A stretch of 64,000 bases of DNA from Bacteroidia bacterium (lineage in GTDB: Bacteria > Bacteroidota > Bacteroidia > J057). Below are positions 55,340 to 56,923 of the stretch, piece by piece (the stretch's first letter is position 1; every line of letters starts with the position of its first letter). The stretch spans positions 62,001-126,000 of the forward strand of contig JAUIKF010000002.1 in the NCBI GenBank assembly GCA_030430575.1, in the 5' to 3' direction. The translations under genes were made by a program, and so were the position numbers. The notes under the pieces were generated by a model that saw nothing but the letters and a program-made list of their open reading frames with translations, was not told the origin of the DNA and did not search any database.

Positions 55340-55367
55340 CCGCTCAAAGTATTGAAACTTTGAGCGG
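55340..55367 (-). terminator. Terminator of the PspA operon
   Basis: CCGCTCAAAGT (55340-55350) pairs with ACTTTGAGCGG (55357-55367), an 11-base perfect stem with a six-base loop. On the leftward strand it is followed by a run of seven T. It sits 56 bases past the stop at 55423. Confidence 0.85.
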
Positions 55368-55422: not shown

Positions 55423-55917
55423 CTAAAAATCGCCTAAAGTCTTTTTGGGTCTAGTGACAGGATCAATCGGTGCTTCTGATGTATCAGGGTTTTCTTCAGC
55501 CGTTTCTGATTGGCTGGTCTCTTCAACTGAATCTGAAGCACTCACTTCTACCGTAGTGGGCTCTTCTGTAGGCTCATCAGGCAGCAAACCCATCTCACGC
55601 TTCATTTGCTCGACCATATTCAAGGCATTGATTTTTTCCATCTCAGCCTCTTTCGCCATCTGCTCTATCTGCTTTTCGCGCTCGGCAGCGGCATCTAATG
55701 CCATTTCAAACTTCGCTTCAGACAAGGCAGAGTCCTCATTGAGTTTCTGAATCCAATCATCAGAATCATCTTTGAAGCCTTCCAGCATATTGCCGAGTGC
55801 TTGATTGATCTTATTCTGCTTTTGCAGATTTCTAGCTTTTTCCAAAAACTCCTTTCGCAGTTTTAAGTCTTGCTTATACTGCTCCTTGAGTTGTTGCCTT
55901 TTTTCTTCATTAGTCAT
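55423..55917 (-). CDS. PspA-tail paralogue (partial coiled-coil protein)
   Basis: A 164-residue soluble protein. It starts two bases after the PspA gene ends, so the two are an operon. Residues 55-115 (WIQKLNEDSALSEAKFEMAL, then EMEKINALNMVEQMKREMGL) line up with the C-terminal helical tail of its neighbour (NRINEETAKNEARMEMALDS and RAAELVNKFKVDMGM). It lacks the long PspA coiled-coil hairpin. The N-terminal 50 residues are Lys/Glu-rich coiled coil, and the last 45 are Glu/Thr/Ser/Pro-rich and disordered. It probably acts with PspA or competes for its partners; this is inference. Confidence 0.75.
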   Translation of the reverse strand: MTNEEKRQQLKEQYKQDLKLRKEFLEKARNLQKQNKINQALGNMLEGFKDDSDDWIQKLNEDSALSEAKFEMALDAAAEREKQIEQMAKEAEMEKINALNMVEQMKREMGLLPDEPTEEPTTVEVSASDSVEETSQSETAEENPDTSEAPIDPVTRPKKTLGDF

Positions 55918-55919
55918 GA

Positions 55920-56648
55920 CTAGGATTTCTCTTTGGTCCCTACATCCAAATCAATGTCGTCTAGTTCCGTTCCCAGTGGATCTTCCATCATGCCCATATC
56001 CACTTTGAATTTGTTGACCAGTTCTGCGGCGCGAATTTTCTCCGCTTCCTCTTCTATTTTCATAGAATCAGTATCTACAGAATCCAAGGCCATTTCCATG
56101 CGCGCTTCATTTTTGGCGGTCTCTTCATTGATGCGATTGATCATCTCATCATGCGTAGCGTCAATACCAGCTACTTCGAAGGACTCCATGGTATCGGCGA
56201 TTTTTGCCTGCCACTTGGCGCGCTCATGCTGGCGCAGTGCTTCCTTGGCGTCATTGATTTTTTTCTGCCGCTGCTTCATGAAGACTTTCTTGACTTCTAG
56301 CGCCTTTTGGTAAGCGGTTTTTGCAGTTTCATGCTGGCTCTTGGTCTGCATCATGTGGTCTTTGATGCTTTCTAGCCTGAGGGCATAGTTTTGTGCAATA
56401 TCGTCACGACCGGCATTGATAGCAGCCTTCATTTTGGATACCAGATCTTGGTATTCTGCGCGGTAACGCTTGAGTTCTTTTTCGAGTAGGGTTACATTGG
56501 CCTTTACCGTGGCAATGTTTTCATTCATCTTGGGGATCTGATCATTCATCTCCCGGATGTTTTGCTCTAGGATGAGCTTAGGGTCCTCGATAGAACTAAT
56601 GAGGCCGCCAAAAAGGGACTTCACAGCCCGGACAAATCTTTTCCACAT
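55920..56648 (-). CDS. pspA: PspA/IM30-family membrane-remodelling protein
   Basis: A 242-residue member of the PspA/Vipp1 (ESCRT-III-like) family, which binds and stabilises stressed inner membranes. The N-terminal amphipathic helix MWKRFVRAVKSLFGGLISSI and the ISSIEDPKLILEQNIREMND start are typical. Residues 25-180 form the long helical hairpin, with the turn near KSQHETAKTAYQKALEVKKV. The C-terminal tail is acidic (DDIDLDVGTKEKS) and homologous to part of the next gene. Length is close to E. coli PspA (222). No pspF- or pspBC-like gene is present in the window. A candidate 5' stretch of CCCCCAAACTCAA words lies just before the ATG. Confidence 0.9.
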   Translation of the reverse strand: MWKRFVRAVKSLFGGLISSIEDPKLILEQNIREMNDQIPKMNENIATVKANVTLLEKELKRYRAEYQDLVSKMKAAINAGRDDIAQNYALRLESIKDHMMQTKSQHETAKTAYQKALEVKKVFMKQRQKKINDAKEALRQHERAKWQAKIADTMESFEVAGIDATHDEMINRINEETAKNEARMEMALDSVDTDSMKIEEEAEKIRAAELVNKFKVDMGMMEDPLGTELDDIDLDVGTKEKS

Positions 56649-56695: not shown

Positions 56696-56787
56696 ATTAT
56701 TGATTAATATATTGACTGAGTCAATTAGAAAGGTTGACAAACAAGTTATGCTTTTGTTTTAAATCAGTCAATCAATTAATATTTAAT
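56696..56787. repeat. Inverted repeat of ATTGATTAATAT words upstream of pspA
   Basis: ATTATTGATTAATATATTGA (from 56696) is an imperfect reverse complement of 56764-56787. It fills much of the gap between the end of fbp and the start of pspA. Same ATTGATT flavour as the element at 26.5 kb. Confidence 0.65.
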
Positions 56788-56859
56788 CTTAAAACAGGCT
56801 CCCTTTTATTAGGGAATACTGAACAAAGATAATAAAGTAATAGGTACGAAAAAAAAGTA

Positions 56860-56888
56860 CTCGCAAGAAGGCTAATCCTCCTTACGAG
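56860..56888 (-). terminator. Terminator of fbp
   Basis: CTCGCAAGAAGG (56860-56871) pairs with CCTCCTTACGAG (56877-56888), with two non-Watson-Crick positions. On the leftward strand it runs into eight T. It is 36 bases past the fbp stop. Confidence 0.75.
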
Positions 56889-56923
56889 CCTATATTCATC
56901 TAATTACTCAAATTGAGTCTTTT

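Follow-up and report, generated by a model that had tools for sequence, protein, structure and literature searches.

A half-length PspA paralogue encoded beside pspA in Bacteroidota, with a short tail motif that may recruit an AAA+ ATPase

PspA is a bacterial membrane-repair protein that is related to the ESCRT-III proteins of eukaryotes. The window analyzed here is a stretch of 64,000 nucleotides (G000:C73:62001-126000) from the 8.2-Mb draft genome of a Bacteroidia bacterium. It carries a pspA gene that is followed 3' on the same strand, after a spacing of 2 nt, by a second gene, whose product is referred to below as the partner (Table 1). The window PspA is recognized by PF04012 with E 5.1e-22 and 79 bits, against a curated cut-off of 33.9. 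The partner gives nothing below E 0.6 in Pfam, PF04012 included, nothing below E 0.09 in NCBIfam, no match in PHROGs and, by sequence, no relative below E 0.17 among solved structures. The two genes look like one two-gene unit, since they are framed by intrinsic-terminator-like hairpins, one of which separates pspA from the fructose-1,6-bisphosphatase gene. A single-chain AlphaFold model of the partner consists of one confident helix (residues 3-108) and a disordered tail, with a pTM of 0.39; this predicted model is neither for nor against docking on PspA. A defence system was considered and rejected, as PADLOC returned no more than weak coiled-coil matches for PspA and weak AAA matches (IetA and others) for the ATPase described below. 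The partner and the associated protein c1 had no match in PADLOC.

Table 1. Features of the pspA locus (positions in the window).
Feature	Position	Strand	Remarks
Intrinsic-terminator-like hairpin 3' of partner	55340-55367	-	from the sequence
Partner gene	55423-55917	-	half-length PspA paralogue, 164 aa, without curated family
Partner C-terminal motif KKTLGDF	55426-55446	-	end of the tail (residues 109-164), which is modelled as disordered
Partner residues 23-119	55561-55851	-	homologous to PspA alpha3-alpha5 according to hhalign
pspA	55920-56648	-	divergent Bacteroidota clade, 242 aa, sole PspA_IM30 (PF04012) match of the genome
PspA residues 136-227	55968-56243	-	copied region according to hhalign
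Promoter-like site 5' of pspA	56696-56724	-	10/12; number of such sites in the region not above shuffles
Intrinsic-terminator-like hairpin between fructose-1,6-bisphosphatase gene and pspA	56859-56889	-	from the sequence

The partner resembles the C-terminal half of PspA. BLASTP against the window PspA gives E 9e-11 with 28% over 134 columns, and a tblastn search of the window's genome with the partner recovers PspA at E 2.3e-6. In hhalign, a profile of 18 partners matches a profile of 15 PspA proteins at 97.9% (E 5.3e-13, 92 columns); with 29 partners the value is 99.1% (E 5.8e-19), and in the profile comparison with 61 partners it is 99.4%. When scored with the PspA profile, 25 of 29 partners exceed all shuffled sequences (1160 plain and 1160 heptad-preserving). 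An unrelated coiled-coil profile, that of c1, served as a control and reached 7.7% and 0.3% only; c1 was also rejected as a PspA paralogue on account of the 7.7%. Judged from sequence, the similarity between the partner and PspA is above chance and is homology. The preliminary description had placed both genes and their likeness correctly, and the profile comparison, in which a lack of significant similarity would have spoken against it, was significant.

The extent of the homologous region was larger than first described. Alignments begin in PspA at residue ~100 (BLASTP) or ~125-136 (hhalign), and BLASTP carries the match weakly into alpha2, beyond alpha3-alpha5; helix names are assigned from the published PspA/Vipp1 layout. 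In these alignments, the partner has no counterpart of alpha0, alpha1 or the first half of alpha2. The partner had been described as carrying a copy of the C-terminal tail of PspA. The shared region stands, and because the match spans alpha3, alpha4, alpha5 and part of alpha2, the partner is a copy of half of PspA and not of the tail alone. The suggestion that it is a truncated paralogue in the same operon, without alpha0 and alpha1, agrees with the profiles and with the 2-nt spacing.

PF04012 matches 164 of the 395 genomes of the phylum. Among the matches listed, 56 genomes form a canonical group with E <= 1e-30, and a divergent group with E values from ~1e-22 to 1e-11 largely coincides with the genomes matched by the partner profile. 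The partner profile matches 99 of the 395 genomes, one of which (G342) carries a canonical PspA and is matched weakly. The divergent PspA profile scores higher than the canonical one, which was built from 27 rows, for 87 of 88 partners (medians of 34.1 vs 2.4 bits). This preference points to a duplication within the divergent clade, so that the partner most likely comes from this Bacteroidota clade of PspA and not from canonical PspA. Both kinds of PspA can coexist, as in G382, where a canonical PspA (E 2.9e-50) is found together with a divergent one that is accompanied by c1 and the AAA gene. Second, weak PF04012 matches lie away from pspA in two genomes, in frames of 318-342 aa (L077, G018:C62:23186-23806; L078, G019:C48:14043-14639); these are possibly other ESCRT-III-like proteins.

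The pspA operons of relatives were surveyed in the best 80 of 163 loci found with divergent PspA, which come from Rhodothermales, Balneolaceae, Salinivenus, Rhodothermus, Roseithermus, Gracilimonas, Fodinibius and Bacteroidia MAGs near the window. The partner lies directly downstream of pspA on the same strand in 70 of these 80 loci, mostly from Rhodothermia/Balneolia. Linkage to pspA in relatives, without which the proposed partnership was to be given up, is thus established. Partner and PspA are also both present in all 29 further loci that were read after the phylum search. The window's order is represented by 22 genomes, with the partner in 18, PspA in 18 and both in 17. The two genes are adjacent in 13 of the 22 and apart in four (G009, G011, G013 and G017); one genome has the partner only (G012), and in another (G010) just a fragment of PspA was found, located at the end of a contig. 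A genome of the same class outside the order (G059) carries both genes unlinked. Outside the window's order, the partner is missing in 5 of the best 80 of 163 loci. In six genomes read that are without the partner, pspA is followed directly by c1; this arrangement occurs in four members of one family (G355, G367, G406 and G430) and two of another (G075 and G128), and two of the five loci (L175 and L191) are the same records as two of the genomes read without the partner. The partner is present in G079 and G254, though the first profile missed both. The partner is dispensable, being absent in several lineages while c1 stays in the genomes read.

Beyond the helices, the tails of the partner and PspA hardly align. 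In the best 80 of 163 loci, 67 of 70 partners carry the motif K[TS][LIVM]G within the last 70 residues, as do 67 of 80 PspA proteins, compared with 11 of the 857 other genes of the same loci; the tails are homologous, so the two tail counts are not independent. The near-identical pattern [KR][TS][LIVM]G is found in none of 27 canonical PspA proteins. As far as can be read from the sequences, the telling point is the conservation of the motif within a tail that otherwise changes freely. In the window's order, the motif occurs in 0 of 15 PspA proteins and the form [TSPVLN][LIMF]GD in 17 of 18 partners, the remaining one (L008) ending in RKLGDF. Where the partner has been lost outside the window's order, the PspA tails that were read keep the motif. 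With a slightly looser motif, two copies are present in 10 of 70 partners from the best 80 of 163 loci; examples of two-copy partners are L088, L098 and L016. The partner of G018 (L017:1881-2330, plus strand) has a tail of repeated TLGDEELIPPRPSEDAVQ-like units with three copies. Such repetition suggests selection for multivalency. TLGDF was rejected as a general tag, since the TLGDF-stop pattern occurs twice in the window's genome, once in frame in the partner and once without ending an open reading frame. As a MIM, K[TS][LIVM]G is not known.

The company of the two genes is conserved as well. In Rhodothermia/Balneolia, the gene order is thymidine phosphorylase (assigned by reading of the sequence), pspA, partner, c1, enoyl-CoA hydratase and CorC/CNNM, and an AAA gene is located in the same operon in 30 of the best 80 of 163 loci, which by record name are mostly from Balneolia. 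The c1 protein measures ~295 aa. Its hydrophobic N-terminal stretch is modelled as two helices (2-TM), and the remainder is a helical coiled coil. The protein has no Pfam family, and a Foldseek search with the c1 model gave no match at E <= 0.001; the best Z in VIA-align, 11.2 with an F-BAR domain, is below the meaningful level for helical bundles. The AAA protein is CDC48/FtsH/CdvC-like and carries a single Walker A/B pair, which lies in the C-terminal region. A Pfam scan of one representative (L169) found AAA and no MIT domain at E <= 0.1. In 14 of the best 80 of 163 loci, the operon is followed by a band-7/flotillin-like gene (FloA-like by eye) in reverse orientation; in L149, L154, L161, L163 and other Rhodothermales, it lies ~3-5 kb after the partner on the minus strand. 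Where the end of the FloA-like gene was seen, its product has the C-terminus [KR]SIG. Such tails are usual for FloA, and in Bacillus there is a link between SPFH proteins and PspA.

Across the phylum (395 genomes), c1 and the AAA gene occur in exactly the same 98 genomes; 97 of these are also among the 99 matched by the partner/PspA profile. The profile matches without c1 or AAA are G342 and G371. G334 has adjacent c1 and AAA genes and a PF04012 match, and none to the divergent PspA profile. Because the carriers belong mainly to one large clade and to the window's order, the 98 genomes do not count as independent cases; the co-occurrence is thus weaker than its numbers and is largely a clade signature of Rhodothermia/Balneolia and the window's order. 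In the window's genome, c1 lies elsewhere (G000:C86:174260-175066, plus strand; L227), between glutamyl-tRNA synthetase and enoyl-CoA hydratase, and the c1-enoyl-CoA hydratase pair also occurs in the pspA operon of Rhodothermia/Balneolia. The AAA gene is on another contig (C24). Of the 22 genomes of the order, 15 have c1 and 21 have AAA. The one without AAA (G015) lacks all four genes, and two (G006 and G014) have c1 and AAA with PspA and the partner absent. Two further genomes, G017 and G021, keep the motif and AAA with c1 not detectable, which makes the AAA protein the better candidate for a reader of the motif.

A natural deletion is found in G371, a 2.2-Mb, 98% complete genome of Balneolaceae from the largest carrier family (f65). 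Its locus reads thymidine phosphorylase, pspA, enoyl-CoA hydratase and CorC, without partner, c1 or AAA. At the thresholds applied, c1 and AAA were not found in the rest of the genome, and a search with the partner profile yields PspA alone. The PspA of G371 is otherwise well conserved (389 bits), and its tail is without the motif. The joint loss of the partner, c1, AAA and the PspA motif ties the motif to the lost genes. This co-loss is one event.

Two features, the tail motif and the accompanying AAA+ ATPase, suggest that the partner marks the PspA polymer for the ATPase. We propose, with a probability of about 45%, that the partner is an accessory ESCRT-III-like subunit of PspA that docks on its polymers and whose tail recruits the ATPase and/or c1. 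It would have arisen by duplication and N-terminal truncation of a divergent PspA and may dock on PspA polymers by its alpha3-alpha5 region, in the manner of the contact between alpha5 and the hairpin tip of a neighbouring subunit in Vipp1 and ESCRT-III. Lacking a hairpin itself, it would not be able to extend these polymers. Its flexible tail would be displayed, and the tail motif would recruit the ATPase or c1; the ATPase could then remodel the PspA polymer or take it apart at the membrane. The role of the partner would then resemble that of the ESCRT-III subunits that recruit Vps4 in eukaryotes. In the lineage of the window, recruitment through the tail would have been handed over entirely to the partner. 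The preliminary description had allowed that such a paralogue could cap, recruit or regulate PspA assemblies; any of the three may apply, and the shared motif and the co-inheritance of c1 and AAA favour recruitment.

Capping or length control, in which alpha5 of the partner would bind free hairpin tips at filament ends and stop growth, with the tail secondary, is considered unlikely. In the available parts of Liu et al. 2021 (PMC8281802), subunits of Vipp1 and ESCRT-III contact one another through alpha5, which grips the hairpin tip of a neighbouring subunit, and Vipp1 no longer forms polymers once alpha5 and alpha6 are removed; such an essential alpha5 would suit a cap, as would a partner that keeps alpha3-alpha5 and is without alpha1 and the hairpin tip. 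However, alpha5 appears by eye to be eroded or absent in several families in which alpha4 and the tail motif persist (L014-L018; L080, L081, L083, L084, L086, L089, L099; L157, L165, L207 and L211). Capping that depends on alpha5 can therefore not hold for every family, and the accessory, recruiting subunit is favoured over a pure alpha5 cap. Clade-specific drift has a smaller chance of being correct. The partner would then be a decaying tandem duplicate, kept by its position in the operon and without a dedicated link to c1 or the ATPase, which fits its fast evolution (25-39% mean column identity) and its loss in several lineages. Yet its N-terminal, alpha4 and tail motifs are conserved over many families, and it is kept in the window's order even where it is unlinked from pspA. 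Least probable is a soluble regulator that would titrate PspA or couple it to a transcription factor (in Proteobacteria, PspA acts on PspF): the partner is small and soluble, has a disordered tail and shares a transcription unit with pspA, but no transcription factor was identified among the recurrent neighbours, and the conserved company consists of a membrane protein and a CDC48/FtsH/CdvC-like AAA protein.

The accessory subunit can be placed beside several known systems. With the PspA/IM30 (Vipp1) family, PF04012, it shares the alpha3-alpha5 region and an operon with a true member; it differs in having no alpha0, no alpha1, no N-terminal half of alpha2 and no PF04012 match, and in being two thirds of the length, half of that tail or unmatched. 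It was supposed at first that no such partner had been described for PspA. This needs to be corrected, as the available parts of Ravi et al. 2024 (PMC11237479) mention, in one sentence, a third coiled-coil gene in the PspA neighbourhood of Bacteroidetes. Their PspA-Snf7-coiled-coil neighbourhood (CBH24266.1), with PspA, a coiled-coil gene and a further gene, is probably the same type of locus; the truncation, the origin from the C-terminal half, the motif, the co-inheritance and the co-loss are not described in those main-text parts. Elsewhere, the same parts report PspA alongside a protein with two AAA domains, the first of them inactive, and the AAA protein found here fits, with one C-terminal Walker A/B pair. 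In the available parts of the literature searched, including PMC11237479, PMC8281802, PMC10936438 and PMC11746142, the paralogy, motif, co-inheritance and co-loss were not found.

What emerges is that members of one PspA clade are inherited along with three other proteins, namely a paralogue that lacks the hairpin, a membrane protein and an AAA+ ATPase. The tail motif that the two paralogues share is short and amenable to mutation. It is tempting, on still more tentative grounds, to see in Rhodothermia/Balneolia and the window's order a complete bacterial ESCRT-III machine, made up of a PspA polymer, a hairpin-less adaptor, c1 as an anchor and a dedicated AAA+ ATPase recruited by K[TS][LIVM]G; the odds are somewhat against it. 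Whether bacterial ESCRT-III (PspA, Vipp1) has a Vps4-like ATPase is an open question in the available parts of Liu et al. (PMC8281802), and it becomes directly testable, since the carriers include named species (Gracilimonas, Fodinibius). The findings suggest a more complete ESCRT-like machine in some bacteria than previously thought. In comparison with the MIM-bearing, Vps4-recruiting ESCRT-III of eukaryotes, the AAA protein differs in that no MIT domain was seen (L169), while the likeness lies in a set of polymer-forming paralogues, a short tail motif and an AAA+ ATPase with putative recruitment; if true, this would amount to a bacterial counterpart of ESCRT-III/Vps4 that uses a recruiting signal of its own.
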